From Blautia parvula (GTDB lineage: Bacteria > Bacillota > Clostridia > Lachnospirales > Lachnospiraceae), in the NCBI RefSeq assembly GCF_020215665.1, contig NZ_CP084061.1:4076501-4140500 (forward strand): 64,000 nucleotides of DNA, in the 5' to 3' direction. Position 1 is the stretch's first letter, and every line of letters starts with the position of its first letter. The notes beneath the pieces are model-generated. The model had not been told where the DNA came from, searched no databases, and saw only the letters and a list, made by a program, of their open reading frames with translations. Below, one piece after another: positions 1,624 through 57,836 of the stretch. Position numbers and translations under genes: made by a program.

Positions 1624-1662
1624 AAACTCTCCTTATACCATCCGTCTTATACATCATAACTA

Positions 1663-1796
1663 GTAACTATTCAGCCAGCTGAATCGTTACGGGTATTCGC
1701 CCATTAAAAATCGCTTCGCGATGGGGCGAATACCTGCCACCACTACTCTTTTGCACGGTCAGCGCAGTAAATGCGCAGACCTGACTGAACAGTTAC
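1663..1796. repeat. MITE-like intergenic element, copy 1 (GTAAC-type ends)
   Basis: A 134-bp element bounded by GTAACTATTCAG (1663-1674) and CTGAACAGTTAC (1785-1796), imperfect terminal inverted repeats. It is flanked by CATAACTA (1655-1662) and CACAACTA (1797-1804), an 8-bp direct repeat with one transition. Inside are a long hairpin with arms GGTATTCGCCC and GGGCGAATACC and a second near GCGCAGTAAATGCGC. The right flank repeat contains the birA stop codon. It is related by ends and target duplication to the elements at 18520, 37970, 48655 and 57357, but the internal sequence differs. Confidence 0.75.
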
Positions 1797-1801
1797 CACA
1801 A

Positions 1802-2575
1802 CTATACATATCCATACAGCCCCCGCACAGATACTTCACCTGCAAAAATGGTCTCACAGGCACCTCCCGGGGTCTGCACAAGAAGCTCCCCTGCCTCATC
1901 AATACCCAGACAGGTTCCCACAAGCTCCCGTTCTTTTTCCATAACCTTTACTTCCCGTCCTCTGCTGGCAAGAAGCCTGTCATATTCCTTCTGAAAAGGC
2001 CGCAGATTCCCTGCATCTAAAAAGCGCTCATAATTCGCCTCAAAACGCTCCAGAACCGCTGCTGCCATCACATCCATCTCCGGTGCCCGGCCGCACTCCA
2101 GCTTCAGGGATGTGGCCTTGTTCTTTATCTCCTCAGGGAACTTCTCCTCTGTGAGGTTAATGCCCACTCCGATGACCACATGGGATATTTTCCCTCCCTC
2201 CATGGACATTTCCGTGAGGATTCCGCAGAGTTTTTTCCCTGACATGACAAGGTCATTGGGCCATTTGATCTGCGCTGTCCTGCCTGTCACATCCGCCACT
2301 GCCTGTGCCGCGGAAAGCCCCATGAGCACTGTCATCATGGGCGCACGCTCGGGGGGCATATCCGGACGCAGAAGCAGGGACATGGCAAGACCGCTCCCCT
2401 TGGGATCTGCCCAGCTTCTGCCCCTTCTTCCTTTTCCTTTTGTCTGGTTTCTCACCAGGAAGACCGCGCCGTGAGGCGCACCCTTCCCGGCTTCTCTTTT
2501 TGCCCAGTCATTGGTGGAATCTGTCTCCTCAGCAAAATTCCACGGTTTTCCCAGCCATACGGTCTTTAGTTCCAT
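1802..2575 (-). CDS. birA: biotin--[acetyl-CoA-carboxylase] ligase, monofunctional
   Basis: This 257-residue enzyme activates biotin to biotinyl-AMP and attaches it to the carrier lysine of biotin-dependent carboxylases/decarboxylases. The biotinoyl-AMP loop GKGRRGRSW (residues 47-55) and KWPND (104-108), followed by SGKKLCGILTE, are diagnostic. It lacks the N-terminal winged-helix DNA-binding domain of bifunctional BirA, so it should be an enzyme only and not the biotin repressor. It starts 6 bp downstream of the argF stop, suggesting transcription with argF. The stop codon lies inside the target duplication of the adjacent repeat element. Confidence 0.93.
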   Translation of the reverse strand: MELKTVWLGKPWNFAEETDSTNDWAKREAGKGAPHGAVFLVRNQTKGKGRRGRSWADPKGSGLAMSLLLRPDMPPERAPMMTVLMGLSAAQAVADVTGRTAQIKWPNDLVMSGKKLCGILTEMSMEGGKISHVVIGVGINLTEEKFPEEIKNKATSLKLECGRAPEMDVMAAAVLERFEANYERFLDAGNLRPFQKEYDRLLASRGREVKVMEKERELVGTCLGIDEAGELLVQTPGGACETIFAGEVSVRGLYGYV

Positions 2576-2581
2576 CTGTCC

Positions 2582-3571
2582 TTATGCCCCCAAAGTCGCT
2601 GCCATTACAGCTTTGATCGTATGCATACGGTTCTCCGCCTCATCGAAAACGACAGACTGTGCAGATTCGAATACTTCATCTGTCACTTCCATATCTGTCA
2701 GACCGAAGCGCTGTCCCATCTCTTTTCCGATGGTGGTCTCCAGATCATGGAATGCAGGCAGGCAGTGCAGGAATATCGCCTCACTTCCCGCGTTCTCCAT
2801 AACCCCGGCGGTCACCTTGTACGGGGTCAGCTCACGGATACGCTCTTCCCAGACTTCATCCGGTTCACCCATGGACACCCATACATCGGTATAGATCACA
2901 TCCGCATCCTTTGTCCCTGCTTCCACATCTTCCGTAAGTGTGATGGTACCGCCGGATTTCTGGGCAAATGCCTCACACTCTTTTACAAGCGCGTCATTTG
3001 GGAAGTATTTCTTCGGTGCGCAGGCAACAAAATGCATTCCCATCTTGGCACAGAGGATCATCAGGGAATTTCCCATGTTGTAGCGCGCATCACCCATGTA
3101 TACCAGTTTTACGCCCTTCACTCTGCCCAGGTGTTCCCGGATAGTCAGAAGGTCAGCCAGCATCTGTGTGGGGTGGTATTCGTTTGTCAGGCCGTTCCAC
3201 ACAGGCACACCTGCGTATTTTGCCAGCTCTTCCACGATCTCCTGTCCGAATCCGCGGTATTCAATTCCGTCATAGATTCTTCCCAGAACCCTGGCAGTGT
3301 CACGGATACTCTCTTTCTTGCCGATCTGGGAGCCTTTTGGATCCAGATAGGTGGTTCCCATTCCCAGGTCGTGGGCTGCCACCTCAAAGGAACAGCGAGT
3401 CCTGGTGCTGGTCTTTTCAAAGATAAGAGCTACATTTCTGCCCTTTAATGTGTCAACGGGAACTCCCTGTTTTTTCTTTTCCTTTAGCTCTGCCGCCAAA
3501 TCAATCAGATATTCAATTTCCTCAGCCGTAAAATCCTTCAGTGTCAGAAAACTGCGTCCTTTTAAATCCAT
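2582..3571 (-). CDS. argF: ornithine carbamoyltransferase
   Basis: Transfers the carbamoyl group to ornithine to give citrulline in arginine biosynthesis (or the reverse in arginine catabolism). The protein has the carbamoyl-phosphate loop STRTR (residues 55-59), HPTQ (133-136) and the ornithine-binding HCLP (269-272), and the family length of about 330. The start at 3571 is chosen because an in-frame ATG 18 bp upstream is itself part of the AGGAGG ribosome site. It is followed at 6 bp by birA. No arcA or arcC neighbours are present, which favours the anabolic role (inference). Confidence 0.93.
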
Positions 3572-3619
3572 CTTACTTATCCTCCTCATTTACCACGGCC
3601 CAGCCGCGTATCTCTTTAG

Positions 3620-4792
3620 TCAAATCAGAACATCCCTGGAAATCACCTGTACAAATGCAGGAATATCCATACCATGCAGCCGGTACAGCTTCCCATACAC
3701 TGCTTCCTGAAGCTGCTCCAGCGTATAGATCCTGTATTTTGATACCCTGCACAGCTTTGCGGTTGCCTCCAGTAAAGCCAGATACAATTCCCGGTAATTC
3801 CAGTCCTTGGAGAGCTTCATCTCCTCCGCCAGAACCGGCAGGATCACCTCTGTCATATTACGCAGAAACAGCCTGGGGTCTCTGGAAAGCTGGTACGTAT
3901 CCATCAGATATTCAAAGACCAAATCATCTAAGTCTGTCAACTGCTTTAAATAATAACACTCTTCTTCTGATTCATCAATATAATATATTTTTCCCTTCAG
4001 CCCGTATATTAAGCGCATGGTGTCATAATACCCGAGTTTCATATGCCGCCTGCTTTTTCTTCTGTCAAAATCTATGATGCTTCCCAGGCTCACTTTGGGA
4101 GCCACTGTATAAATTGTGGTTTCTTCGGGAATCTTTACCTTCTTCTCCCGTCCGATTCCGAAAATCCTTACCATAATAATATTTTCGTATCCACGGTCCA
4201 CCAGGGAACTTAAGGGTACATTGTTGATGGCTCCGCCGTCAATATAGCGTTTGCCGTGAAGACGTTCATTCTTAAACAGCGGAAAAATATAGGCGCTTGC
4301 CAGCAAAAAATCCTTAATAAGCTCCGGGTCACACTGCTTCACATCAATATCCAGCTCTTTCTTATCATCCACATTGAAGGTCAGGACATACAGATCCACA
4401 GGGGAATGGATGATCTTCTCCTCATCAATACATTCCGCGATCAGCTCCTTCAGCGGCGTCACATCAATACCGCCCTCTTTCATAAAATCAAAGGCGCTCT
4501 TCAGCATATCCACATCCAGCTTCTTCTGATGGAACAAAAGTTCCATTTTCTCATCTTCCACAGACATAATGCTGGAGTAGGAAATATTTTCCCAGACCTT
4601 CTCCGCATTGGTCAGATCATCCATGCAGATCAGGGCGCCGTTCAGTGCCCCCACGCTGGTGCCTGCAATGCCTTTGATCTTCACGCCCGCTTCCCGCATG
4701 GCTTTCCATGCGCCGATCTGGTATGCACCCTTTGCGCCGCCGCCCTCCAGAACAAGACCATATTCCTTTGTAAGGTCAATTACCGGTTTCAT
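3620..4792 (-). CDS. patatin-like phospholipase/acyl hydrolase
   Basis: A 390-residue protein whose N-terminal part is a patatin domain: oxyanion loop GGGAKG (17-22), nucleophile elbow GTSVG with Ser46, and the DGG motif with catalytic Asp185. Such proteins hydrolyse acyl esters of membrane lipids with a Ser-Asp dyad; the substrate is unknown here. No signal peptide is visible, so it is likely cytosolic or peripheral. The C-terminal 150 residues are helical and carry no motif I recognise. It stands alone, about 30 bp upstream of argF, and may be read into argF-birA. Confidence 0.85.
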   Translation of the reverse strand: MKPVIDLTKEYGLVLEGGGAKGAYQIGAWKAMREAGVKIKGIAGTSVGALNGALICMDDLTNAEKVWENISYSSIMSVEDEKMELLFHQKKLDVDMLKSAFDFMKEGGIDVTPLKELIAECIDEEKIIHSPVDLYVLTFNVDDKKELDIDVKQCDPELIKDFLLASAYIFPLFKNERLHGKRYIDGGAINNVPLSSLVDRGYENIIMVRIFGIGREKKVKIPEETTIYTVAPKVSLGSIIDFDRRKSRRHMKLGYYDTMRLIYGLKGKIYYIDESEEECYYLKQLTDLDDLVFEYLMDTYQLSRDPRLFLRNMTEVILPVLAEEMKLSKDWNYRELYLALLEATAKLCRVSKYRIYTLEQLQEAVYGKLYRLHGMDIPAFVQVISRDVLI

Positions 4793-4880
4793 GACTGATG
4801 CCTCCTCTTACCTATGATGCAGTCTGCATCCTGGATTTTTCACCCTGCCCTGCACACAATCATCCTGCTAATAAAATGCC

Positions 4881-4918
4881 GCAGAGGGGCTGTCACATAT
4901 CTGCAACTGCCCCTCTGT
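4881..4918. terminator. probable rho-independent terminator after the SPFH/NfeD pair
   Basis: Hairpin with arms CAGAGGGGC and GCCCCTCTG around an 18-nt loop. On the minus strand it is followed by a short T-rich run (GGCATTTTATT), so it probably ends the NfeD-SPFH transcript. The T tract is modest. Confidence 0.6.
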
Positions 4919-4953
4919 CTTTATCATGCCCGACAGTAAATGCCCGCCGGAAG

Positions 4954-5889
4954 TTAGTTTTCTTTATCTGTGACGATCTCTTTCAGAGATGCCGCAAGAC
5001 CTGCGATTCCCTGGATATCAGACGGAATTATGATTTTTGTCGCCTTGCCGTCCGCTGCCGCTTCAAATGCCTCCAGGCTCTTGATCGTCAGTACGCTCTG
5101 ATCTGCACCTGCGTCTTTAATAAAACGGATACCATCTGCTTTTGCCTGCTGTACCTTCAGAATTGCCAGCGCCTGGCCTTCTGCTTCCTTGATCTTCTTT
5201 TCCTTCTCAGCCTCTGCACGGAGAATAGCTGCCTGTTTCTCAGCCTCCGCATCCAGGATTGCAGATTCTTTCTTACCTTCTGCTACCAGAATAGTGGATT
5301 TTTTCTCACCTTCTGCTCTCAGAATGGATTCACGGCGTTCACGCTCTGCCTTCATCTGTTTCTCCATGGCCTCCTGAATGGCTGCCGGCGGAATGATATT
5401 TTTCAGTTCCACGCGGTTTACTTTGATTCCCCACGGGTCCGTTGCCACGTCCAGAGACGCACGCATCTTGGTATTAATGATCTCCCTGGAGGTCAGGGTA
5501 GCGTCCAGTTCCATATCACCAATGATGTTACGCAGTGTAGTGGCTGTCAGATTCTCAATTGCCATGATGGGATTCTCCACACCATAGGCAAACAGACGCG
5601 GGTCTGTGATCTGGAAGAATACAACCGTATCAATCCTCATGGTAACATTATCTTTTGTGATGACCGGCTGCGGTGCAAAATCCACAACCTGCTCTTTCAG
5701 ATTCACACGTTTTGCGATCCTGTCAACAAACGGAATTTTAAAGTGAAGTCCTGTTCCCCATGTCTCCTTATACATTCCCAGGCGTTCAATGATCATGGCG
5801 TGTGCCTGGGGCACGATCCTGATACAGGACGCTATCACGATAAGCAGAAGTATAACCGCAATAATCAGTAATACTGTTCCTACATTCAT
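4954..5889 (-). CDS. SPFH/stomatin-family membrane protein (QmcA/flotillin-like)
   Basis: A 311-residue protein with one N-terminal membrane helix (residues 4-24), an SPFH/band-7 domain (about 25-190) and a long charged coiled coil with repeated AEGEKKS/AEAEKQA-type heptads (about 190-250). SPFH proteins form large oligomeric scaffolds on the inner membrane and often recruit proteases or organise lipid domains. The gene starts immediately downstream (1 bp) of an NfeD-type gene; the SPFH-NfeD pair is a classic conserved operon in which NfeD is the partner. The precise client is unknown. Confidence 0.9.
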   Translation of the reverse strand: MNVGTVLLIIAVILLLIVIASCIRIVPQAHAMIIERLGMYKETWGTGLHFKIPFVDRIAKRVNLKEQVVDFAPQPVITKDNVTMRIDTVVFFQITDPRLFAYGVENPIMAIENLTATTLRNIIGDMELDATLTSREIINTKMRASLDVATDPWGIKVNRVELKNIIPPAAIQEAMEKQMKAERERRESILRAEGEKKSTILVAEGKKESAILDAEAEKQAAILRAEAEKEKKIKEAEGQALAILKVQQAKADGIRFIKDAGADQSVLTIKSLEAFEAAADGKATKIIIPSDIQGIAGLAASLKEIVTDKEN

Positions 5890-5890
5890 A

Positions 5891-6358
5891 TTATTTTTCC
5901 TCCTCTACAATTAGCTTTACTCCCTCGACCGCCACAATTCTCACGACTTTTCCTTCATCGATAATTGTTTCGTCCTTGGATTTAGCGGACCATTCCAGTC
6001 CATTTACCACAGCCTGCCCGGTACCTCTCAGATTATCTATGGTTTTTATAACCACGGCCTTTTCGCCGGGAAGACTGTCTACATTTGTCTTTGATACATT
6101 TTTGTTCATGTACTTTATTGCTATCGGCCTGGTAAAAATAAGCAGGAGTATAGAGACCGCAAAAAACAGTATGATCTGCAGCCATAAAGGTCCGCCTGCC
6201 AGCGCTGCAAGAAACGCGGCCAGTGCTCCTCCCGCAAACCAGATGGTTGTAAGCCCCAGGGTGATGATCTCAACCACCAGAAGCACCCCCAAAAGGATCA
6301 GCCACATCACTGCTATGGAACCTGCTGTAAAAGCTGTAAAGAATGTCAACATACCCAT
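5891..6358 (-). CDS. NfeD-like membrane protein
   Basis: A 155-residue protein with three closely spaced hydrophobic segments (about residues 10-90) and a small beta-barrel (OB-fold, NfeDC) at the C terminus with the typical GxGxxxxNGxEWxA pattern near residues 110-122. This is the short NfeD form lacking the ClpP-like protease domain. It precedes the SPFH gene by 1 bp. NfeD OB domains are thought to bind the SPFH partner and stabilise its oligomers. The ribosome site GGAGAG lies just upstream of the ATG. Confidence 0.87.
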   Translation of the reverse strand: MGMLTFFTAFTAGSIAVMWLILLGVLLVVEIITLGLTTIWFAGGALAAFLAALAGGPLWLQIILFFAVSILLLIFTRPIAIKYMNKNVSKTNVDSLPGEKAVVIKTIDNLRGTGQAVVNGLEWSAKSKDETIIDEGKVVRIVAVEGVKLIVEEEK

Positions 6359-6383
6359 CTCTCCTTTCCGGATGATTTCAGGT

Positions 6384-6445
6384 AAAAAAAATCAGTCCTT
6401 TACGAATAATATATCCATTTGTTGATATTATATCGTAAAAGACTG
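6384..6445 (-). terminator. terminator of the ABC exporter operon
   Basis: Arms CAGTCCTTTACGA and TCGTAAAAGACTG, extended by an AT-rich inverted repeat; on the minus strand the stem is followed by eight T residues. It lies 15 bp beyond the permease stop and separates it from nfeD. Confidence 0.85.
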
Positions 6446-6460
6446 AAAATAACAATATTT

Positions 6461-9043
6461 TTATTCCGCTTTTCTCATTCTTTCCGTCACGCTTGTCCTG
6501 CACATACTCCTATAACACAGCGCGGGAACTGCAAGCACAACCAGTACGAGAACCGGGAGACAGAGCAGTATGGGTGTGACCGTAAATCTCCAGCTATAGA
6601 AGAAAAGAGCGTCTCCTAAGCCGCGGATCGCTGTGGCATTCAGTATCCCGCCTAATATGACGGACGCTGCGCCTGTAAAAAGCGCGTACAGAAGGCCTTC
6701 ACATCCCAGCATCCGGCGGAGCTGTGTCCCGGTCATCCCCACTGCCTCCATCATGGCAAACTCCTGCTTTCTGGACAGGACTGACGTCACCATGGTATTG
6801 ATAAAGTTTAAAATACCAATGGCCGCCAGGATCAGTGACAGAAGCCCGCCAACTATGACGTACATATCTTTATCTTCCTCAAACTCTGCGGCTACTGTGG
6901 CTTTTGACGTATAATCCAAGTCTGCATTTACATTTTCGCAGTAGTTGGAAAGCCATTTTTCCATGTCAGCCTCTTTGTCCTTTTCCACATTGAAAAGTGT
7001 TCTCATGGGCAGCCTGTCTCCGATAAAATCCAGGTATTCCCGGTCAGGAAGTACGAAATTATATTCAAATACACCATAGGACTGAAGTCCGCAGGCATAG
7101 GGCAGATCCCCTACAGCCATCACCTCATACTCTCTGCTGCTGCCGTCATCCAGGCGGACCGTCACTTTGTCTCCGACTTCGTAATAATTGATCCGGTTCT
7201 CATCCGGGCCCAGATGTCCGAACTTTGAGGTTATCACGTATTTTCCCGTTTTAAACTTCTCCCAGTCCAGTTCCCCCTCCGAGAGTTCCATCTTCTCATA
7301 GATGAGGCGTCCGATTCCGAATATTTTGCCGTCTATAATGTCAAAGGTGCCGTTTGCAATGGATTCCTGGTAGGCTTCCTCTGCAAAATATTTTCCCAGA
7401 TATGGCTGTGCCTTTGGATTCTGCAGTATTTTCTTATTAAACGCAGACCGCTCTTCCTCCGTAAAATTGGGTTGATTTATATAATTCATGTAAACATTGG
7501 AGATTTCCTCCACCCTGCTCTGCTCTGACAGCACATCCAGAAATTCTCTTGTCACACCCTCCACCGGTTTATCAATGATCGTAGGGTTATCAAGACCGGC
7601 TTCATATACGGAATAATCGCTGACCGTGGCGGAGGCAATGAATTTATCCATATCAAATCCGCTTACAAGCCCGTAGACACTGTTCAGCAGCACCAGTCCC
7701 AGGGAAAGGGAGGTGGTCACAATGACAACTTTCTTTTTATTTCTCTGCATATTGGCTGCCGCCATGGTCCAGGGCTTTACCTTCTTTGTCTTCCTGCCCT
7801 TTTTCCCGGCCGCTTTGCTGTTCTGTCCTTCCGTATACCGTACAGCCTCCACAGGTGAGACGGAGGATGCGATACGGCACGGTTTAATGCAGCTTATATA
7901 GACCGTCAGAAGGGAAAAAACAGCGGAGGCAGCAAAGATCCACAGTTTTAAAGTCACCTTCGTATCCGCTGTACTGGAAAACACCAGATTTTGCATCACA
8001 ATGGGAAGTATCCATTTTCCTGTCACACCGCCCAGCAAAAGACCCAGAGGAATGCCGTACAGGCAGAGCATATAGGCCTGTCTGCGCACAATCTTCCTGA
8101 GCTGTCTGCCCGTTGTGCCGATGGTCTTCAAAAGACCGTACCGACGGATATCATGAAACACATTGATATAGAAAATGTTGTAGATGATCAGGTAGCCGGA
8201 TATCAGGATCACCAGCAGAAGGGCAGCCACAGGAAGCATATCTTCTATATTGATATCCATTCCCATGTAGGCCCAGTTGATTCCATCGCTTACTGTATCC
8301 TTGGGGAATCCGCACCTCTCTGCCAGCGCCTCCATCTTCCCGGTCAGATCAAAACTATTACGAAAATTAAAATCCGCCATAATCCTTCCCGTATAACCGG
8401 ATGCGTCTATATTGCTTCCCATGGCGGAAACCGTGGGTGTGGGCGCCAGCTCATCCGCCAGTTCTCTGGACACCAGCATGATCTGGGACATGGATATGGT
8501 ATCTCCCTTGAAATAGCCGGTAAGTGTAAAAGTCCTCTCGTATTCCCTGTCACTGACTGTAAACTTGAGAGGGACTTTTTGCCCGACTTCGCAGGGTATG
8601 CCCATGGCTTTTAAAACCAGGTCGCTGGTGACAATCTCATCCGCAGCCTCCGGCATGCTCCCTTCCTCAGGATAGCAGAAGCTGAACTTTGCTTCCAAAT
8701 CCTCGTAATATCCTATTTCTGTTCTCAGTTTTTTCAGCGACTCGTTCACAGCTTCGCCTACCACGATCCGATAGGACACTTCTTTTAACTTCTTATCCTT
8801 TTTGACTATATCGTACTCTTCCTGTGTCAGGTATTTGAATCTGCCGTGGGCGCTTCCTCCCACCTGGCGCATGGTGGCCTCCTGCTGCTTCTCCACAATA
8901 CTTCCGCCGATGGTAAAGACCGAGGTAAAAAGCAGGGCAGTCAGGGCTATGGCAAGAACAGCAATGAGGTTTCTGCTCTTGGCTGCCTTTCTGGTCCTGT
9001 CAGCCACGCGGCGGATGGCTTTCCGGTTCTTGACTTTACGCAT
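6461..9043 (-). CDS. ABC transporter permease with two FtsX domains (MacB/peptide-efflux type)
   Basis: About 860 residues: an N-terminal transmembrane helix after a basic start, a large extracytoplasmic domain (about 50-270), three helices (about 275-400), a cytoplasmic link, then a second copy of helix plus extracytoplasmic domain (about 445-735) and three final helices. This is the duplicated FtsX architecture of lipoprotein/antimicrobial-peptide exporters. The preceding ATPase gene overlaps it by 8 bp, so translation is coupled. GTG at 9052 is an alternative start; ATG at 9043 has the better GGTGAGG spacing. The RR/HK pair at 11.7-13.2 kb is the likely regulator (inference from the usual module). 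Confidence 0.88.
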   Translation of the reverse strand: MRKVKNRKAIRRVADRTRKAAKSRNLIAVLAIALTALLFTSVFTIGGSIVEKQQEATMRQVGGSAHGRFKYLTQEEYDIVKKDKKLKEVSYRIVVGEAVNESLKKLRTEIGYYEDLEAKFSFCYPEEGSMPEAADEIVTSDLVLKAMGIPCEVGQKVPLKFTVSDREYERTFTLTGYFKGDTISMSQIMLVSRELADELAPTPTVSAMGSNIDASGYTGRIMADFNFRNSFDLTGKMEALAERCGFPKDTVSDGINWAYMGMDINIEDMLPVAALLLVILISGYLIIYNIFYINVFHDIRRYGLLKTIGTTGRQLRKIVRRQAYMLCLYGIPLGLLLGGVTGKWILPIVMQNLVFSSTADTKVTLKLWIFAASAVFSLLTVYISCIKPCRIASSVSPVEAVRYTEGQNSKAAGKKGRKTKKVKPWTMAAANMQRNKKKVVIVTTSLSLGLVLLNSVYGLVSGFDMDKFIASATVSDYSVYEAGLDNPTIIDKPVEGVTREFLDVLSEQSRVEEISNVYMNYINQPNFTEEERSAFNKKILQNPKAQPYLGKYFAEEAYQESIANGTFDIIDGKIFGIGRLIYEKMELSEGELDWEKFKTGKYVITSKFGHLGPDENRINYYEVGDKVTVRLDDGSSREYEVMAVGDLPYACGLQSYGVFEYNFVLPDREYLDFIGDRLPMRTLFNVEKDKEADMEKWLSNYCENVNADLDYTSKATVAAEFEEDKDMYVIVGGLLSLILAAIGILNFINTMVTSVLSRKQEFAMMEAVGMTGTQLRRMLGCEGLLYALFTGAASVILGGILNATAIRGLGDALFFYSWRFTVTPILLCLPVLVLVVLAVPALCYRSMCRTSVTERMRKAE

Positions 9044-9719: not shown

Positions 9720-9892
9720 ATCTTCACCTTTCTGCTGCCCGTATCATGTGTATCTGCAGGGACAGGCAAGTAATTTTTTTTACTGTCCTTATCCTATCAT
9801 TTTATTCTTTCCACATTATTTCGGAAATCTAACACTTGTGAAAGAATTGCGGCTGCCGGTACTTGATGATTATAGAAAATTTCATTCTCCTA
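9720..9892. other. divergent intergenic region, no gene
   Basis: The stretch between the ABC ATPase (minus) and the promoter of the purine permease (plus) is AT-rich and non-coding. It must carry the promoter of the ABC operon, but I see no convincing -35/-10 pair or operator. Confidence 0.4.
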
Positions 9893-9921
9893 TTGCCTTT
9901 CCGTTAAAAATGTAGTATGCT
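9893..9921 (+). promoter_or_regulatory. probable sigma-A promoter of the purine permease
   Basis: TTGCCT (9893-9898) and TATGCT (9916-9921) are separated by 17 bp. The predicted transcription start lies about 45 nt before the riboswitch-like aptamer. Confidence 0.6.
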
Positions 9922-9972
9922 AGCATTATAAAGTCTTAATAAATTTTTTATGGAAATAAAATATTTGTGAAG

Positions 9973-10107
9973 TTTATATAGGCTCATAATTGGATGGGCG
10001 TCTCTACCAGCTACCGTAATAGCTGCCTATAAATTTCCGGATGAGGAATTGTGCCGGAAATCAGCAGTTTATGACCGGTAGTATTTTTTACGGAATTTTT
10101 TAAAGGA
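9973..10107 (+). promoter_or_regulatory. purine-riboswitch-like leader with very short P2
   Basis: The core (9973-10034) shows a closing stem TATAGGC/GCCTATA, a J1/2-like CTCATAAT, the signature J2/3 TCTCTACC, and a P3 stem-loop AGCT-ACCGTAAT-AGCT. These match the guanine-class purine aptamer, and the downstream gene is a purine permease. The P2 stem is almost missing: the loop-like GGATGGG follows the J1/2 directly. After the core come a hairpin with arms TTTCCGG/CCGGAAA and a weak CCGGTA...TACGG stem before TTTTTT (to about 10107), which could be the expression platform. Guanine/hypoxanthine OFF control is inferred by family. Confidence 0.7.
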
Positions 10108-10196
10108 AAGGAGGCAGAACTATAACGACCCGGCGGCGGTTCATCCATAAAAAATAACATTAGCTCGTATAATGAGTGGAGGCAGGAGGAAAATTT

Positions 10197-11570: not shown

Positions 11571-11606
11571 CCACAGCATCCGGTAACACAGCCGTTCCCC
11601 GGAATG

Positions 11607-18470: not shown

Positions 18471-18519
18471 TTTTCTCCTCCATTACTGTATTTTCATGAT
18501 TCCCTCTTGACCTCTAATC

Positions 18520-18548
18520 TTAAACTGTTCAGCAATCTGAATAGTTAC
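18520..18548. repeat. MITE-like element, minimal derivative
   Basis: A 29-bp remnant with ends TTAAACTGTTCAG and CTGAATAGTTAC almost head to head. It is flanked by an exact 8-bp direct repeat CTCTAATC (18512-18519 and 18549-18556). It looks like an internal deletion product of the family seen at 1663 and 37970. Confidence 0.65.
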
Positions 18549-18565
18549 CTCTAATCTTCCTTATT

Positions 18566-24409: not shown

Positions 24410-24481
24410 CTGGGCTACAAGGATTCGAACCTTGAAATGACGGAGTCAGAGTCCGTTGCCTTACCATTTGGCGATAGCCCA
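24410..24481 (-). tRNA. tRNA-Gln (anticodon CUG)
   Basis: The minus strand folds as a 72-nt cloverleaf: acceptor TGGGCTA/TAGCCCA, anticodon stem ACGGA/TCCGT with loop CTCTGAC (anticodon CTG, reading CAG), and T-arm AAGG-TTCGAAT-CCTT. The 3' CCA is not encoded. It is a single tRNA with its own terminator. Confidence 0.95.
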
Positions 24482-37955: not shown

Positions 37956-37969
37956 TTAGACGAAAATAT

Positions 37970-38112
37970 GTTACTGTTCACTGCGTGCCCAGCAACACGC
38001 TTCGCGATGCACAGATATGGAGCATTTTGCTCCACATCGCGCTGGCTGCCTCGGGATTTTCATGCCTTCGGCCTGAAAACACCTCGCGGGACAGTGGTAT
38101 GTGAACAGTAAC
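37970..38112. repeat. MITE-like element, full-length copy (143 bp)
   Basis: Perfect 12-bp terminal inverted repeats GTTACTGTTCAC / GTGAACAGTAAC. Flanks are GAAAATAT (37962-37969) and GAAAATAC (38113-38120), an 8-bp direct repeat with one transition. It is in inverse orientation to the 143-bp copy at 57357, with about 14 differences by eye. Internal hairpins: GATATGGAGCA/TGCTCCACATC type and CGGGATTTTCATGC...AAAACACCTCG. It ends 40 bp before the pncB -35 box. Confidence 0.85.
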
Positions 38113-38152
38113 GAAAATACACCAAACAATCCGGCAAAATGCCAGTGTATCC

Positions 38153-47123: not shown

Positions 47124-47168
47124 CCGGCCTGAAAACACCTCGGGGGACAGTGGCATATGAACAGTAAC
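47124..47168. repeat. MITE-like element, truncated copy
   Basis: A 45-bp right-end fragment matching the last third of the 37970 copy (CGGCCTGAAAACACCTCG...ATGAACAGTAAC). The left end and any target duplication on that side are lost. It lies against the melA terminator. Confidence 0.65.
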
Positions 47169-47221: not shown

Positions 47222-48544
47222 TTATTTGTACATTTTCATGTAGTCGCCGTGTGCGTCAATAAGCTCGTCACACATTTTCACAATATCATCAATGCTCAGC
47301 TCTGCACCTGTATGCGGGTCCATCATGGCAGCCTGGTAGATGTATTCTTTCTTCTTGGTCGCTGCTGCTTCAATGGTAAGTAACTGTACATTGATATTGC
47401 TCATGTTCATGGCTGCAAGCTGTACCGGCAGTCTTCCGACTCTGCAGGGGTTCACACCTGTTCCGTCAACCAGGCAGGGAACTTCCACACAGGCGTCTGC
47501 CGGAAGGTTCTCAATGGAACCGTTGTTGATCACATTGCCGCCGATCTTGTACGGCTGGTTGGTCACAACTGCCTCCATAATATAGGAAGCATATTCCTTG
47601 CTTCTGTCATGGGTGATCTTACCGTCTTTGAGGATGCTGTTTCTCTCCTCTTCCCATCCCTTGATCTGCTCAATACATCTTCTCGGATACTCATCCAGCG
47701 GAATATTGAATTTCTCGATCAGTTCCGGATATTTGGATTTGATGAAGAACGGATTGTACTCTGCATTGTGCTCGCTGGACTCTGTGCAGTAATATCCAAG
47801 GTGTTTGATATATTCAAAACGAACCATGTCGTCATGTTTCTGTGCTGCATTCATCTCTGCTGCTCTTCTGCGGATCTCCGGATACAGATCATTGCCGTCC
47901 TTATCCTTGATGTCCAGCAGCCATGCCATATGGTTGATACCCGCAATGGTCTCCACACGGCCTTCCAGCTTGTCCTTCATATCCAGCTTTTCAAGCAGCT
48001 TCTCTGAACATACCTGAACGCTGTGGCACAGACCTACGGTCTTCACGCCTGTGTAACGCTGCATATATCCGGACAGAATGCCCATGGGGTTTGTGTAGTT
48101 TAAGAAAAGCGCTTCCGGGCAGACCTCTTCCATATCTCTTGCAAAACCTTCCAGTACCGGAATGGTACGGAGCCCTCTCATGATACCGCCGATTCCCAGT
48201 GTATCTGCAATGGTCTGACGAAGGCCGAATTTCTTCGGGATCTCAAAATCTGTGATGGTGCAGGGATCATATCCGCCCACCTGGATAGCATCTACAACAA
48301 ATGTTGCATCCCGCAGCGCTTCTTTTCTGTTCTCCACGCCCAGATAAGTTTTGATATGTGCACGTCCCTCGTTTACATTTTTGTTGATTGCATTGAGGAT
48401 GATCTCGGAATCCTCCAGACGTTTTCTGTCAATATCATATAATGCGATCTCGCTGTCACACAGTGCCGGGCTGCACATACAGTCGCCAAGTACATTTCTT
48501 GCAAATACGGTGCTTCCTGCACCCATAAAAGTAATCTTAGCCAT
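47222..48544 (-). CDS. melA: GH4 alpha-galactosidase (MelA type)
   Basis: A 440-residue NAD- and Mn-dependent glycosidase of family GH4: Rossmann motif MGAGSTVFARN (7-17), the metal-site motif CHSV (173-176) that marks alpha-galactosidases within GH4, NYTNPMG and GINHMAWLL. It hydrolyses terminal alpha-galactosides such as melibiose or raffinose. It is divergent from an AraC regulator (48845) across a MITE-like element, the likely regulator. The second GH4 in the window carries CHGE instead and differs in specificity. Confidence 0.9.
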   Translation of the reverse strand: MAKITFMGAGSTVFARNVLGDCMCSPALCDSEIALYDIDRKRLEDSEIILNAINKNVNEGRAHIKTYLGVENRKEALRDATFVVDAIQVGGYDPCTITDFEIPKKFGLRQTIADTLGIGGIMRGLRTIPVLEGFARDMEEVCPEALFLNYTNPMGILSGYMQRYTGVKTVGLCHSVQVCSEKLLEKLDMKDKLEGRVETIAGINHMAWLLDIKDKDGNDLYPEIRRRAAEMNAAQKHDDMVRFEYIKHLGYYCTESSEHNAEYNPFFIKSKYPELIEKFNIPLDEYPRRCIEQIKGWEEERNSILKDGKITHDRSKEYASYIMEAVVTNQPYKIGGNVINNGSIENLPADACVEVPCLVDGTGVNPCRVGRLPVQLAAMNMSNINVQLLTIEAAATKKKEYIYQAAMMDPHTGAELSIDDIVKMCDELIDAHGDYMKMYK

Positions 48545-48654
48545 TTTATCATTTCCTCCGTTTCTGTTGTTTTCTGATGGTTCTTATTATATAATCAGAG
48601 CAGAAAATATTCTATCTTATTTGTTTCTTATAATTGTAAAAATGTTGCATGTAG

Positions 48655-48807
48655 GTTACGATTCACGACCAATGTTCCGGGAGGTGTTTTGCGAAGCAAA
48701 ATCCCGAGGCAGCCAGCGCCAAAATGCAATTTATTGCATTTTGTGTGCATCGCGAAGCGTGTTACTGTTCACAGAACTGCGCTTTTTGCAGGGCTGTGAA
48801 TAGTAAC
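48655..48807. repeat. MITE-like element, long copy (153 bp)
   Basis: Ends GTTACGATTCAC and GTGAATAGTAAC, flanked by GCATGTAG (48647-48654) and GCATATAG (48808-48815), an 8-bp repeat with one transition. It shares linkers CCCGAGGCAGCCAGCG and GTGCATCGCGAAGCGTGTT with the 37970/57357 copies but has different hairpin arms (AAAATGCAAT/ATTGCATTTT). It fills most of the melA/AraC intergenic region. Confidence 0.8.
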
Positions 48808-48844
48808 GCATATAGGTAATTATTCGGATAAAGGAGTGAGCAAA

Positions 48845-49666
48845 ATGAACCCAGAACCATCCGGTACCCTGTCCATCTATTTCTGCGGCACCGAGCCATG
48901 CGCCCCCGGACATGCCTTTGGCCCGGCTGTCCGTCCCCACTATCTCATCCACGTGGTGCTGGACGGAAAGGGGATCTATAAGCGAAACGGGGAAACCTAT
49001 CATCTGAAAGCAGGGGATGCTTTCCTCATCTCCCCCATGGAGTCCACCTATTACCAGGCTGACGAAAAGGAACCGTGGCGGTACGCCTGGGTGGGATTTG
49101 ACGGCATGAGTGCGAAAGACCTGCTGGAGAGAACATGTTTCCGGAACTCCTGTGTGTACTTCTGTCCCGATGACGAAAAAAAGAGAGAGGCTGTCATTGC
49201 CCATGTTCTGGAACTTCTGGATTCCTTTCTCTCCCGGGGGCAGAACAGCCTGACTCTGTTAGGACATTTTTTCCAGCTCCTGGGCACCATGCAGAGCCCG
49301 GAGCCGGCCGGACGGGAAGAATATCCCCGCCAGTATCTGGCAAAAGCCATGGAATATATGAACAACAACTACAGCTACAATATACGAATCTCTGATATTG
49401 CATCCTATATCGGTGTGGACCGCTCTTATCTGTACCGCATTTTTATGGAGGAGGAACACATCTCACCCAAACAGTACCTGATGCGTCTGCGGCTTCGCAC
49501 CGCTGCCAGTATGCTGCGCTCACCCCGGTATACCATCACGGAGATTGCCTACTCCTGCGGGTTTCGGGATGCGGCTGCCTTCTGCAGCCAGTTCCGCAGG
49601 GCCATGGGATTTACGCCCAGCCAGTTTCGGGAATACCTAAAAGAGGAGACAAAATATACCCAGTAG
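48845..49666 (+). CDS. AraC-family transcriptional regulator (cupin sensor)
   Basis: A 273-residue regulator with an N-terminal cupin-like ligand domain (about 10-140) and a C-terminal two-helix-turn-helix domain (about 175-270: IRISDIASYIGVDRSYLYRIFMEE and ITEIAYSCGFRDAAAFCSQFRRAMGFTPSQFR). ATG 48845 follows AAAGGAG. It is divergent to melA and convergent with the next AraC gene (7-bp gap), so it probably responds to an alpha-galactoside. AraC proteins usually bind direct repeats. Confidence 0.87.
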   Translation: MNPEPSGTLSIYFCGTEPCAPGHAFGPAVRPHYLIHVVLDGKGIYKRNGETYHLKAGDAFLISPMESTYYQADEKEPWRYAWVGFDGMSAKDLLERTCFRNSCVYFCPDDEKKREAVIAHVLELLDSFLSRGQNSLTLLGHFFQLLGTMQSPEPAGREEYPRQYLAKAMEYMNNNYSYNIRISDIASYIGVDRSYLYRIFMEEEHISPKQYLMRLRLRTAASMLRSPRYTITEIAYSCGFRDAAAFCSQFRRAMGFTPSQFREYLKEETKYTQ

Positions 49667-49673
49667 CTGAGGT

Positions 49674-50492: not shown

Positions 50493-50570
50493 GCTGTCTC
50501 CTCTCTCTGCGTCCCGGACTGCCCCCTCTGCAGTCCCTCCCGTCAGGCTGTCTGAATCTTGCCTCGAAAT

Positions 50571-51611: not shown

Positions 51612-51626
51612 AATGTGTGTCCTCCT

Positions 51627-52625: not shown

Positions 52626-52684
52626 TAAATTTTTCCTCCTCTATTTTAAATCGTTCTTTGCTCCGGCTGCTGCCTTTTCTGCTG

Positions 52685-53527
52685 CTATCCCTTCACGGCT
52701 CCGGCAGTGATACCGTCAACGAAACTTCTCTGGAATATGGAATATACAATGATGATCGGCACCGTACAAATGGTCACTCCCGCCGCTATCAGCGATGTAT
52801 TCATGGTATATTCCCCCTGGAAATACATAAGCCCCAGAGGCAGCGTCCTGTATTTATCGTCATACACCATCAGCATGGGCAGAAGATAATCATTCCAGGA
52901 CCACATAAATTCAAAAATCAGCAGGGAAGTCAGAGCAGGTTTTGTCAGCGGAATCATAACATACAGCCACGCCTTCCACTTTCCGGCCCCGTCAATGGTG
53001 GCCGACTCTATCAGTTCATCCGGCAGTTCCCGGAAAAATGACCGCATCATAAAGCAGGCAAACGGCATGGACAGCCCAAAGTACGGCAATATCATAGCCT
53101 GCAGTGTGTTGATCATGCCAAGCTGCTGTACATTATAGTAAAGCGGTATGATCATGGCATTGATCGGTATCATCATACCTATGAGAATAAAATAAAAAAT
53201 CTGGTTTCTCCCTTTCCATTTCAGTTTGCCAAAGGCATACCCTGCCATGGACGAAAGCAGCAGCACCACAAAAACCCTGGGTACAGCCACTAAAATGCTG
53301 TTTTTCATATAGCCGCCCATGCGCCCGGTTGTCCATGCTTCTTTTATGTATTCAAAGGTCACTGAAGTCGGAAATGCAAACGGATCGTTTACGGAAGGGT
53401 CAAAGGGCTTTATTGCTGCCATCCACATCCAGAAGATGGGAAGAACGGAGACCAGCACAAATAAGATCAATATGGCATGTGTCAGAATACTGACCAGGTG
53501 CCGCCTGGCCGCTGTGTGTTCACTCAT
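52685..53527 (-). CDS. ABC sugar transporter permease, MalG-like
   Basis: A 280-residue permease with six membrane helices and the EAA-type loop ELIESATIDGAGKWKAWL that contacts the ATPase. It is the second permease of a CUT1 transporter. The operon lacks an ATPase gene, so a shared MsmX-type ATPase from elsewhere is likely (known practice in Firmicutes). Confidence 0.9.
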   Translation of the reverse strand: MSEHTAARRHLVSILTHAILILFVLVSVLPIFWMWMAAIKPFDPSVNDPFAFPTSVTFEYIKEAWTTGRMGGYMKNSILVAVPRVFVVLLLSSMAGYAFGKLKWKGRNQIFYFILIGMMIPINAMIIPLYYNVQQLGMINTLQAMILPYFGLSMPFACFMMRSFFRELPDELIESATIDGAGKWKAWLYVMIPLTKPALTSLLIFEFMWSWNDYLLPMLMVYDDKYRTLPLGLMYFQGEYTMNTSLIAAGVTICTVPIIIVYSIFQRSFVDGITAGAVKG

Positions 53528-53540
53528 ATTTTCCCCTCCT

Positions 53541-54431
53541 CTACTCTTTGTCTGTCAGTTTCATGAAAATTCCGGAGCATACCGCAATGATCACAGCCAG
53601 AACCACAGCAAGTGCCGAACCATATCCGTAATCATTCATATTAAAAGCTGAATTATACATGTAGGTGGAAATAACCTCTGACGAGTGATAAGGCCCACCC
53701 TTCGTCATAATATAGATCAAGTCAAATACTTTAAACGAACCGATCAGTGAATTGGATACCAAAAGTACGATCGTCCCCTTAATAAGCGGAACAATGACAT
53801 AGATAAACTTCTGAAAGGCATTGGCCCCCTCCAGTTTTGCCACTTCCAGATAGCTGGTATCAATCCCCTGCAGCGCCGCAAGAAATACCACCATATTAAA
53901 TCCGTAACAGGTCCAGCTTCCCGCAAGCACCAGGAACCATATGACCATTTTCTCATCCCCGAGAAAATCGATTCCCGCGGCCCCATGCATTCCCAGAGCA
54001 TTCAGCATCCTTCCCAGGATTCCGAATTCCGGATTGTAGATCCATCCCCATACGATGCCGACTGCAACAAGCGAAACCACATTCGGCATGAAATAGGTAA
54101 GCCGGTACAGAAATTTTCCTTTTACATACTTCTGTGTCAGCATCACCGCAAAGATCAGCCCCAGAAGTACAGGAACAAAAATGGTAAACAGTATCCAGAT
54201 GACATTGTTCCCCAATGCTTTATAAAAAATGGGGTCCTTCAGTACCCTTGCATAATTATCCAGACCCACAAACTTCATGAAAGGAGCCGCTCCGTTCCAT
54301 TCATGAAAACTGATCCTCACAGTTGAAAAAATAGGTATCACCAGAAACAGGCAGTAGAACAGCAGTGCCGGAAGTGCAAAAGCAAAGCATCCCATCCAGT
54401 TTTTCAGCAACATCCTTTTTCTTTTATCCAT
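53541..54431 (-). CDS. ABC sugar transporter permease, MalF-like
   Basis: A 296-residue permease with six or seven helices and the EAA loop LEVAKLEGANAFQKFIYVIV. It pairs with the MalG-like subunit 13 bp downstream and with the binding protein 100 bp upstream. Confidence 0.9.
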   Translation of the reverse strand: MDKRKRMLLKNWMGCFAFALPALLFYCLFLVIPIFSTVRISFHEWNGAAPFMKFVGLDNYARVLKDPIFYKALGNNVIWILFTIFVPVLLGLIFAVMLTQKYVKGKFLYRLTYFMPNVVSLVAVGIVWGWIYNPEFGILGRMLNALGMHGAAGIDFLGDEKMVIWFLVLAGSWTCYGFNMVVFLAALQGIDTSYLEVAKLEGANAFQKFIYVIVPLIKGTIVLLVSNSLIGSFKVFDLIYIMTKGGPYHSSEVISTYMYNSAFNMNDYGYGSALAVVLAVIIAVCSGIFMKLTDKE

Positions 54432-54531
54432 AAAAACACCCTTCCCGCTGCACGTGACAGGGCTGCAGCAGAATCCTGCAGCCCCTCACTGATTTATAAC
54501 AATAGAATGTTCACAGGTATGCTTCTGCCGC

Positions 54532-55890
54532 CTATTCTACTGAGTAGTTTCCTGCCTCGATCTCTTCCTCAAATGCCTTCTGCTTCTGTTCCATACAGGC
54601 AGCTCCGTCAATCTTGCCCGCAATAAGCTGCTGCACGTAGTTCTGTGTCACATCATTTACCTTAGGCGGCATAAGCACGTCTATATTCTCGCCAAGGTTC
54701 TCGGACGCGTTGATCTCATCCACCACATCTTTGAACAGCTCACTGACTTCGTAGGCGCTGTAATCCACATCTTTTACAGAGGGGATCAGACCTGCTTCAT
54801 ACCAGAGTTCCATGTTGTCAGGCTGGAACATATAGTCCAGGAATTTTACTGTCTCTTCCGGATATTTCGTCTTAGAATTTACAACTACAGCTTCACCAAG
54901 TCCCCCCGGAGGGCAGTTGTCCAGATCATCCGACGCTACCGGTACGAAGAAGAATCCCACATTGTCCTTCATATTCTCCACACACGCGGATACCAGCCAG
55001 GTACCGGTCACACGCATGGCACCTTCCCCTGCGTAGAATGCTTTATTTGCATCTTCGGATGCCAGGCTCAGAGGCTTCTCTGTGGCATATCCCTTTTCAA
55101 ACACACTGTAAAGTTCATCAAGAGCTGCCCCGAATCCTTCGCTTGTCCAGGGTATTTTTCCCGCTACCGCTTCTTTTACTCTGTCCGCTCCCACAAAACT
55201 GTTCAGCCAGATTGACTCATAGTGAAATCCCGGCCACTGCTCTTTGTCATCCATGATAAGCGGCGTGATGCCTTTGTCTTTGAATTTCTGGCATATCTGC
55301 ATAAACTCTTCGTAAGTCTCCGGTACTTCAATGCCTTCCTCCTCGAACATTTTCTTGTTGTAATATACGCCCAGCATTTCCAGCTCATTGGCTACACCGT
55401 ACAGTTTGCCGTCGTATACGGTTTTCTCCAGAGCCCAGTCATGGAACCTGTCATCCCATTTATACTGTTCCCTGTAGTCGCTCAGATCCATTGCCAGACC
55501 GGCATTTGCCAGAACGCCCAGATAACCGGCACCGGCGTCATAACTGAAGATATCCGGGCCTTCTCCGCTGTTGATGGCAGGCTTGATGGTATTTCTCAGG
55601 TCTGCAACCTTGAAAGCGGTACGCTTGATGGTGACATTGGGATTTTCCTTCTCAAAATTCTCGATGATGGTGTCTATCATTTTCGCTCCGGCACCCTCTG
55701 TCCTTAAATCCCACATGTTCAGTTCAATTTTTTCTGTGGAAGCAGCATTATCCCCCGAGTCACCTGCATCCGTTTTTGTCTCTGTCTTGCTTTCAGCCGT
55801 ATCGCCCTCTTTTGCCGTTCCGGGCGTACATCCTGCCAACATTGTCCCCACAAGCACCAAACCGGTCAATACCTTCCATTTTCTTCCCAT
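54532..55890 (-). CDS. ABC sugar-binding lipoprotein
   Basis: A 452-residue extracellular binding protein with lipobox MLAGC (Cys21) and a low-complexity linker (25-50), then the family-1 solute-binding fold with NPNVTIKRTAF and GPDIFSYDAGAGYL. It captures an oligosaccharide or glycoside. It is the first gene of the transport operon, preceded by the AraC-like repeats. Ligand not readable. Confidence 0.9.
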   Translation of the reverse strand: MGRKWKVLTGLVLVGTMLAGCTPGTAKEGDTAESKTETKTDAGDSGDNAASTEKIELNMWDLRTEGAGAKMIDTIIENFEKENPNVTIKRTAFKVADLRNTIKPAINSGEGPDIFSYDAGAGYLGVLANAGLAMDLSDYREQYKWDDRFHDWALEKTVYDGKLYGVANELEMLGVYYNKKMFEEEGIEVPETYEEFMQICQKFKDKGITPLIMDDKEQWPGFHYESIWLNSFVGADRVKEAVAGKIPWTSEGFGAALDELYSVFEKGYATEKPLSLASEDANKAFYAGEGAMRVTGTWLVSACVENMKDNVGFFFVPVASDDLDNCPPGGLGEAVVVNSKTKYPEETVKFLDYMFQPDNMELWYEAGLIPSVKDVDYSAYEVSELFKDVVDEINASENLGENIDVLMPPKVNDVTQNYVQQLIAGKIDGAACMEQKQKAFEEEIEAGNYSVE

Positions 55891-55934
55891 AAATACATCT
55901 CCTTTGCATAATATTTAATATTTTTGGTATGTTT

Positions 55935-56032
55935 AATATAGCATTTCTTGTAGAAAATGTACTTACCACTCCTTTTCCTGTTCTTTGCAGTTTTACATAT
56001 TTTGGTAATATCTTTGCAGATTTACATATTTT
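55935..56032 (-). promoter_or_regulatory. promoter region with AraC-type direct repeats
   Basis: On the minus strand two direct repeats AAATATGTAAA-C/T-CTGCAAAGA lie at 56032-56011 and 56003-55982, 29 bp apart. Downstream is a -10-like TATATT (55940-55935) without a good -35. The layout fits an activator replacing the -35, as for many AraC systems. Beyond (56033-56224) I see only AT-rich sequence. Confidence 0.6.
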
Positions 56033-56224
56033 TCTTCGATTTTGGCTGTTTGCATGGTGTATTTTTCTGCGGAAATACTGTAGAATTGCAAAGGAATTTG
56101 TTATTGATTAATTTTTCTGATAAATACGATTATTTAATTATCAGATACTTTTTCTAAATTAAATACTTTTTGCGCTGAATAGCCAAATAATCATCAAAGG
56201 GATTTCCTTTTGGAAAAAGAAATG

Positions 56225-56271
56225 CAAAAAAGCAACTGTCCGGCAATTTTATGCCGGGCAGTTGCTTTTTT
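56225..56271. terminator. bidirectional terminator of the Cof-type HAD gene
   Basis: AAAAAAGCAACTGTCCGGCA and its complement, loop TTTTA, T6 on both strands. Confidence 0.88.
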
Positions 56272-56357
56272 GGGTGGGACTCTATTATTATTGATTGTTT
56301 AAGAGCGTGTCTTGTGTCTGATAATTGATTTTGATAAGCTGTGCATGACAATGCGCA

Positions 56358-57146
56358 TCATATTATTCCGTAATGTTTCAGCGCATAATGGATTCCATCT
56401 TCCTCGATTCCCTTTGTCACATAACTGCAGTACGGGAGGATCTCTTCTTTGGCATTTCCCATTGCTATGCTGTTCTTTACTGCTTTCAGCATATCCAGAT
56501 CATTCTCACTGTCGCCTACAGCAAAGCAGTTCTCCATATCTGCATCCAGATGGCTGCACATAAACCGGATTCCTGTAGCCTTTGTGTAATCTTTCTGCGT
56601 CACCTCCCAGACATTGCCGCCCCGGGGGATGCAGTAAAAATGTTCATCCAGAAATACTTTTATCTCCCCGGCTGCTTCTGTGTCCGGAAGGAATATAAGA
56701 CATTTATCATAAGTCTGGTTTTCATCGCGAAATAACTCTTCGATATTTCTCCCTTTCGCCGCAAATATCTGTATTGCCTCCTGAAGCCATGGATTGGGGT
56801 AACTGAAATCAAAATATATAGCCTTGTCAGCCTCATAAAATACAGGGATCTTGGCATCCCTCAGCATTTTTGCAACTTTCACGCACATATCATGGGGAAT
56901 TGCGGATTCCAGCAGCTTTTTGCCTCTGTAATAAATGTGGGTGCCGCAGCCACAGACATATCCGTCAAAGTCCATGGAACGGATTTCCTCACTGATACTG
57001 TAATACGTCCTTCCGGTATTGACAAACACCTGGTGCCCGTTTCTCTTTGCCCCGGCAATCGCAGCCCTGGTACTGTCGGGTATGATCCCGGAGGGCTCCA
57101 TTGCAAGTGTGCCGTCTATGTCAAAAAATATTAGTTTACTGTCCAT
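56358..57146 (-). CDS. Cof-type HAD hydrolase
   Basis: A 262-residue HAD phosphatase of the Cof/YidA type: DIDGTLA (9-15), VNTGRTY (motif II, about 37-43), Lys within YTKATGIRF (motif III), and GDSENDLDML (motif IV). The large C2 cap lies between motifs II and III. Such enzymes dephosphorylate sugar phosphates, FMN or phosphoramidates. The leader carries a terminator-like hairpin. Confidence 0.88.
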   Translation of the reverse strand: MDSKLIFFDIDGTLAMEPSGIIPDSTRAAIAGAKRNGHQVFVNTGRTYYSISEEIRSMDFDGYVCGCGTHIYYRGKKLLESAIPHDMCVKVAKMLRDAKIPVFYEADKAIYFDFSYPNPWLQEAIQIFAAKGRNIEELFRDENQTYDKCLIFLPDTEAAGEIKVFLDEHFYCIPRGGNVWEVTQKDYTKATGIRFMCSHLDADMENCFAVGDSENDLDMLKAVKNSIAMGNAKEEILPYCSYVTKGIEEDGIHYALKHYGII

Positions 57147-57201
57147 AATCTCTCCTTAATGTTAAAGTCCGCTTTTTTTAGGTGTCTTACTGCATATAAA
57201 A

Positions 57202-57233
57202 ACCACCCTTAAACCTTTGCATGTCAGGGTGGT
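57202..57233 (-). terminator. terminator-like hairpin in the leader of the HAD gene
   Basis: Minus strand ACCACCCT/AGGGTGGT stem with T5 after it, about 55 nt before the start codon. No upstream gene ends there, so it could be an attenuator. Confidence 0.45.
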
Positions 57234-57356
57234 ATCCTTTACTTTCAGAGGTCAGCCGCGCTTGGCTGTTGTGTTCTTTTCCGTCTTCAATTTATCATAT
57301 TTCTGTTAAGAATTCAAGCGATTATTGCCGGTCGTTATTGACGCTGTTATTGCTGT

Positions 57357-57499
57357 GTTGCTGTCCACACGCCACTGTCCCGCGAGGTATTTTCAGGCCG
57401 AGGGCACGAAAATCCCGAGGCAGCCAGCGCGATATGGAGCATTCTGCTCCATATCTGTGCATCGCGAAGCGTGTTGCCGGGCACACAGTAAACAGTAAC
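57357..57499. repeat. MITE-like element, full-length copy (143 bp)
   Basis: Ends GTTGCTGTCCAC and GTAAACAGTAAC, flanked by ATTGCTGT (57349-57356) and ATTGCTGC (57500-57507), an 8-bp repeat with one transition. It is the reverse orientation of the 37970 copy, with about 14 differences in 143 bp. The hairpin GATATGGAGCA/TGCTCCATATC is retained. Confidence 0.85.
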
Positions 57500-57836
57500 A
57501 TTGCTGCGCCGGCAAGTGGTTACTGACTGCGCCGCGCCCGGCAGTTACCAATCCATTCTCCTGCTAAACTACACTAAGTTTTACATGTAAACCGGAAATA
57601 CCTGTTGCCGGCAGAAAAGGCCTGTGCTAAAATTAAAAAAGCATATTTTCTGGATCATCTTTCTATTTTTGAATCAGTCTTGGGATTCATAATATCTTAT
57701 ATCATTTCATAATAACGGGTCGACGTATGTCCGGCCTGTCCTTTCGGAAAATTCGTGCTTTTCACCACATTTTTTGCAGGAGTTTTCGGAAAGGTTAGAA
57801 ACCTCCTGCGTCTATAATTAAAAAAGGAGGTTTTAT
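57500..57836. other. gene-free stretch before the Rpn-like gene
   Basis: Apart from a small imperfect inverted repeat with GTTACTGACTGC and GGCAGTTAC (57519-57548) the sequence shows no coding region. A promoter for the next gene (57837) must lie here; I see no clear one. Confidence 0.35.

Follow-up and report, generated by a model that had tools for sequence, protein, structure and literature searches.

Short palindromic, intergenic and multi-copy sequences are known from bacteria in the form of the REP/REPIN sequences, which are associated with RAYT transposases; we know of no target duplications in REPINs. Among the bacterial miniature inverted-repeat transposable elements (MITEs), Nezha is reportedly one example. 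A small palindrome is also what remains after nearly precise excision of Tn10, a hairpin-forming element from which the stretch between short repeats close to its ends is deleted. For the insertion sequences of the IS66 type, published descriptions give the ends GTGACTACTCAGCA / GTAACTGCTCAGCA, an 8-bp repeat and a single open reading frame (ORF) of 449 amino acids (aa) for ISDge4 of Deinococcus geothermalis (IS66/ISBst12 group; PMC12898284), list 8-bp repeats for the IS66 elements ISPpa5a and ISPpa7 (PMC3281130), and give ends of the type GTAAGCG... for IS66 (PMC12888890). Here we describe a family of short mobile elements found in a stretch of 64,000 nucleotides from Blautia parvula, referred to below as the window (G000:C1:4076501-4140500 of a 6.25-Mb single-contig genome). 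In the open-licence PMC literature on MITEs with IS66, Blautia, Lachnospiraceae and the end sequence, no description of this family was found.

These elements form a previously undescribed family of otherwise familiar MITE type, recently active and made up of two subfamilies, here called A and B. Its members have the traits of MITEs, being short, transposase-free, multi-copy and dispersed, with terminal inverted repeats, a target duplication of fixed length and empty sites in relatives. A preliminary description, made from the letters of the window, had proposed non-autonomous MITE-like mobile elements with 8-bp duplications, and this proposal is borne out by the duplications, by empty sites and by a transposase with the same ends; the ends themselves, the duplications at the same-ended partners and one site in empty, full and footprint states were likewise observed directly. 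With a probability of about 0.83, we read the family as a non-autonomous MITE-type family of Lachnospiraceae on whose ends a divergent IS66-type DDE transposase acts in trans. The class of the mobiliser is identified by ends and duplications, and it is a transposase of this clade that would have moved the copies described here. For Lachnospiraceae genomes, this adds a widely distributed non-autonomous family for which a candidate enzyme can be named.

All six sites named in the preliminary description are present in the window, and the 8-bp duplications at five of them read as had been reported, one pair being identical and four differing by one transition. That the sites are non-coding was also upheld, as all six fall between likely genes in a gap check with genes picked from the ORF list; mechanical ORFs at 48351-48803, 48731-49204 and 57221-57526 overlap two of them. 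The end at 57357 (GTTGCTGTCCAC) does not conform to the proposed common end motif, GTWAC-TRTTCAS. The six sites represent two subfamilies rather than one: subfamily A, with GTTACTGTTCAC ends, at 37970, 47124, 48655 and 57357, and subfamily B, with GTAACTATTCAG ends, at 1663 and 18520. At no more than two mismatches, GTTACTGTTCAC matches the window 13 times against 2.88 expected, and none of 100 shuffles reached 13. The features are as follows, the copies of the duplications being read from the sequence and given without strand.

1655-1662: left copy of the 8-bp target duplication, CATAACTA
1663-1796, plus strand: full 134-bp MITE of subfamily B, with ends GTAACTATTCAG / GTAACTGTTCAG and a left-end 28-bp palindrome at 1663-1690
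1797-1804: right copy of the duplication, CACAACTA
18512-18519: left copy of the duplication, CTCTAATC
18520-18548, no strand: 29-bp palindrome, apparently the footprint that internal deletion of a B-type element left behind, judged from sister-species alleles
18549-18556: right copy of the duplication, CTCTAATC
37962-37969: left copy of the duplication, GAAAATAT
37970-38112, plus strand: full 143-bp MITE of subfamily A, with GTTACTGTTCAC ends and a left-end palindrome at 37970-37996
38113-38120: right copy of the duplication, GAAAATAC
47124-47168, plus strand: fragment comprising the right end of a copy of subfamily A, without duplication (92% over 48 nt to 38069-38116)
48647-48654: left copy of the duplication, GCATGTAG
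48655-48807, minus strand: copy of subfamily A, 153 bp long, with a 47-bp hairpin module (48761-48807) as its palindromic end
48808-48815: right copy of the duplication, GCATATAG
57349-57356: left copy of the duplication, ATTGCTGT
57357-57499, minus strand: copy of subfamily A, 143 bp long and 90% complementary to 37968-38112
57500-57507: right copy of the duplication, ATTGCTGC

Elsewhere in the window there are a purine riboswitch aptamer (RF00167, 53.2 bits) at 9954-10049 on the plus strand and a tRNA-Gln at 24410-24481 on the minus strand.

Searches of the whole genome with the 143-bp copy and the ends recovered a multi-copy, dispersed family. With 40 of 71 first-look candidates scored, the 143-bp A copy matched its own genome at least 46 times; it gave 40 matches in the same-genus genome G007 and 24 in G008; across the genus, 4 of 20 genomes matched, among them G010 with a single weak match. 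The 134-bp B copy gave at least 54 own-genome matches (40 of 101 candidates scored, with self-palindrome matches counted). At least 20 B copies, including that of the window, are near-identical over essentially the whole length, and because they agree at 96-100% identity, a recent burst of activity of subfamily B is implied. With fixed boundaries, 17 of 20 B copies are flanked by 8-mers differing by at most one base, versus 0 of 380 swapped left/right pairs; when the boundaries were allowed to move by up to 2 bases, 18 of 20 further B copies had 8-mers with at most one mismatch. The exact string GTTACTRTTCA occurs 60 times genome-wide versus 8 times for the reversed control. In 60 stitched pieces of the same genome, 26 of the 49 listed candidate end pairs (spaced up to 5 kb, with nested pairs and chance pairs among them) lie less than 250 bp apart with 8-mers differing by at most one. 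The pattern of the 27-bp left-end palindrome, whose counts take in the left ends of full copies, was found in 23 of 299 sampled Lachnospiraceae genomes, with up to 78 per strand in one of them.

Queries from both subfamilies found no match among plasmids. Phage records gave five partial matches per subfamily query, all to unannotated faecal records, and viral contigs gave one match; a contig catalogued as viral (L263, IMGVR_UViG_3300012162_000123) carries a 61-bp family member at 151-211, flanked by 8-mers that differ at one base. Automatic classification of modules detected no mixed A/B pair among the elements. By eye, one locus in G010 (L065, 1486-1628) combines a B-like left half with an A-like right half, which is suggestive only.

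Empty targets were seen in the sister species represented by G007 and G008. The orthologous places of 20 sites were sought in stretches of these two genomes, and part of them gave a clean answer. At window 37970-38112, the orthologous site is empty in both genomes, with a single GAAAATAC; at window 48655-48807, neither has the element and the target is somewhat altered. Elsewhere in the genome, both sisters are empty at site 4226131, and G008 is empty at 5505183 and at 5991412, the latter holding a truncated copy in G007. The element at window 1663 is absent from the orthologous place in both sister genomes, where the target 8-mer is not readable. The intergenic region corresponding to window 47124-47168 does not align and has nothing comparable, alignment is poor at 5018474 and 5058117, and no orthologous site with both flanks was present in the stretches examined for window 57357 or for several others. 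At 5505183, G007 has a different element, which lies 4 bp away and is flanked by a duplication of its own, GAATGGAC, and at 5258914 it has a truncated copy of another subfamily; different subfamilies within a few bases of each other at these two places suggest insertion hot spots. A preference for terminator T-tracts was considered and is not claimed: 7 of 88 sites exceeded the threshold of 12, versus 0-5.7% at nearby offsets, with the maximum at a distance of 20 bp, and an earlier genome-wide control under which the sites appeared enriched (6 of 71 versus 0.75%) was not restricted to intergenic DNA.

Other Lachnospiraceae genomes contain a transposase gene that lies between the same ends. This partner is a divergent IS66-type transposase accompanied by a small ORF, in units of about 2.2-2.4 kb. 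A scan of element-bearing genomes with PF03050 led to the locus L136 in G069, a 2308-bp unit with 21-bp inverted ends (GTTACTTTTCACGGGGTGGGG) that encodes a 581-aa IS66-type protein and has a 100-aa ORF; its relatives occur in 11 of the 299 sampled genomes at E<=1e-20. Two of these relatives, L145 and L150, are bounded by ends of the type GTTACTGTTCACACCC / GTTACAGTTCACACCC and flanked by identical 8-mers, GCCGGAAT and GTATTAGA, respectively. A scan of named genomes yielded 64 partner loci, nearly all from records titled as Lachnospiraceae or other Clostridia, including Blautia schinkii, B. hansenii, B. caecimuris and B. glucerasea. Where enough flank was available, the left end was found at 41 of 51 loci, the right end at 45 of 51 and both ends at 33, versus no locus with both ends in five shuffled sets; identical 8-bp duplications flank 10 of the 26 testable loci. 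The transposases are about 555-580 aa long, and a short ORF of about 52-124 aa stands upstream of the large one in 15 listed partner elements, several of which are broken. All nine members of the alignment A2 match PF03050 (DDE_Tnp_IS66) and NF033517; the two members with scores shown, L136 (137.1 bits) and L228 (138.4 bits), stay below the NF033517 cut-off of 180 bits. Residues D329, D380 and E505 are invariant in this alignment and would form the catalytic triad.

Ordinary IS66 elements were considered as partners and rejected. Twenty PF03050 loci of element-bearing genomes (L123-L142) were screened, and two had an end pair at no more than one mismatch: the clade member L136, whose ends bound the gene, and L137, a chance pair without a matching 8-mer. 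The ends are therefore clade-specific, since among these 20 loci gene-bounding ends occur only at the divergent L136. On G007:C1 there are six IS66 copies of equal score and length (555 aa) without MITE ends (L123, L129, L134, L138, L140 and L141).

The interior of the elements is strongly structured. Compared with shuffled sequences, the 34 A elements with duplications have a mean folding z-score of -5.8 (range -8.6 to -2.8). The position of the second hairpin is occupied by at least five stem sequences that are unrelated to one another but each complementary to itself; the stem search missed 3 of the 34 elements. Because the swapped hairpins fail to line up in a MAFFT alignment of the 34, RNAalifold recovered hardly any consensus structure (-6.1); the evidence for pairing thus comes from stems found element by element and from the z-scores. 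In the left-end palindrome, at least 7 of 12 bases match between the arms in 34 of 44 elements, as against 1 of 44 when the interior is shuffled. The outer and inner arms of B copies covary (GTAACGATTCAG with CTGAATCGTTAC, GTAACTATTCAG with CTGAATAGTTAC), with exceptions that include the copy in the window itself. Templated correction of palindromes may account for such arm pairing and covariation as well as selection.

From these features a mechanism can be proposed. Most likely, the transposase of the partner clade would recognise the 12-bp ends GTTAC[TA]RTTCA[CG] / GTAACTRTTCAG in trans and insert the element, creating the 8-bp duplication. The element carries a palindromic left end of 27/28 bp (or 47 bp) followed by one or two further hairpins, which are exchanged in sequence with their pairing preserved. 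Slipped replication across the hairpin would then delete the part between the inner arm and the right end, leaving a palindrome of 25-30 bp with both copies of the target, to which the nearly precise excision of Tn10 offers a parallel.

Several observations weigh against assigning mobilisation to this clade. Two profiles of the partner clade (E<=0.01 and E<=0.05) have no match in the genome of the window, and the suggestion that a transposase elsewhere in this genome moves the elements is unsupported, as only two IS66 relics were found there, matching 26-27 of the 284 positions of PF03050. No partner-profile match was obtained in 19 (E<=0.01 profile) or 18 (E<=0.05 profile) of 25 element-bearing genomes, so most hosts of the MITE are without a visible partner. 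Moreover, 16 of the 26 testable partner loci have no matching 8-mer, partner loci mostly begin with GTTAC whereas the ends of MITE subfamily B begin with GTAAC, similarity between MITEs and autonomous units hardly extends past the ends, and the left palindrome is missing from the ends of the autonomous units. An unseen transposase could be the real mobiliser. Hosts without a visible partner are common for MITEs. Among the element-bearing genomes that do match, G069 has an intact unit, G075, G151, G281 and G299 have relics, and the rest have weak matches or ordinary IS66. The two relics in the genome of the window (L061 and L062, G000:C1:3438465-3438542 and 1324147-1324227) are short C-terminal remains of ordinary IS66 transposases, and L061 has such stretches on both strands. 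Subfamily B had its recent burst in a genome where no resident transposase of the clade was found; presumably the enzyme has since been lost from this genome or came from outside. It is unlikely, though the missing intact IS66-type gene in a genome with a recent 20-copy burst speaks for it, that the same MITE family is moved by an unrelated transposase of this genome with similar ends and an 8-bp duplication, as IS66-type clade members from many genera have the identical end motif and duplication length. Ends that stand alone in this genome were also tried as ends of an autonomous copy: of 17 listed with inward ORFs, six ORFs were scanned and none is a transposase (they encode ROK, M18 peptidase, protein kinase, PucR, MFS and WYL proteins), with the remaining inward ORFs unscanned and other transposase families not searched genome-wide.

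The short palindromes of 25-30 bp look like footprints of internal deletion, and there is one direct case: at the site of window 18520-18548, G007 has no element and one copy of CTCTAATC, in G008 a B-like element of 133 bp lies between the 8-mers CTCTGAGC and CTCTAATC (81% match at G008:C1:4092175-4092302), and the genome of the window has 29 bp. Since the inner palindrome arm and the right end form a near direct repeat, deletion between the two yields just such a footprint; second halves do occur in both inner-arm and right-end versions (L107, L104), and the 61-bp forms, two in this genome and the one on the viral contig, look like products of deletion between CGCGA repeats. Alternatively, the palindromes could themselves be mobile minimal elements, a folded-back transposase end of about 27 bp being a complete transposable unit and the larger elements consisting of this unit and exchangeable hairpin cargo between two ends. 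In favour of this, 13 palindromes of 25-30 bp that stand alone are flanked by 8-bp duplications at no more than one mismatch, those at 5505183 and 4226131 occupy sites empty in a sister species, and duplications are perfect in 6 of the 13 versus 33 of 54 full copies, so the footprints are not clearly older. The two sites with only empty sister alleles do not discriminate, however, deletion predicts the same product, and the 133-bp element in G008 occupies the very site of a 29-bp form; we regard mobile minimal palindromes as improbable. Far less credible still is a fixed structured RNA or regulatory repeat, REP- or riboswitch-like, that does not transpose: the strong folding and the pairing kept across five unrelated stem sequences would suit it, but the 8-bp duplications and the empty sites do not, and no Rfam family reached the gathering threshold at the element sites. 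Reading the short palindromes as remnants of MITEs explains sequences that are open to being mistaken for regulatory sites, and the alleles of sister species make both footprint formation and hairpin exchange directly testable.

Compared with described systems, the family combines familiar and distinctive features. The ends of ISDge4 resemble the MITE end GTAACTGTTCAG, and it shares the 8-bp direct repeat and an IS66-type DDE transposase; the MITEs differ in lacking a transposase, and the partner units apparently differ in having a second small ORF next to transposases of about 555-580 aa, whereas ISDge4 is given with one ORF. With bacterial MITEs such as MITEPsy1 (PMC3189936), the family shares short length, absence of coding capacity, inverted ends, target duplication, dispersal and a presumed dependence on a transposase in trans. 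It differs from them in its palindromic left end, its exchangeable hairpin modules, its probable IS66-type mobiliser and its apparent decay to footprints of 25-30 bp. The 8-bp duplications and terminal inverted repeats set it apart from REP/REPIN sequences, and in contrast to the laboratory excision events of Tn10, the footprint is seen here among natural alleles of sister species.

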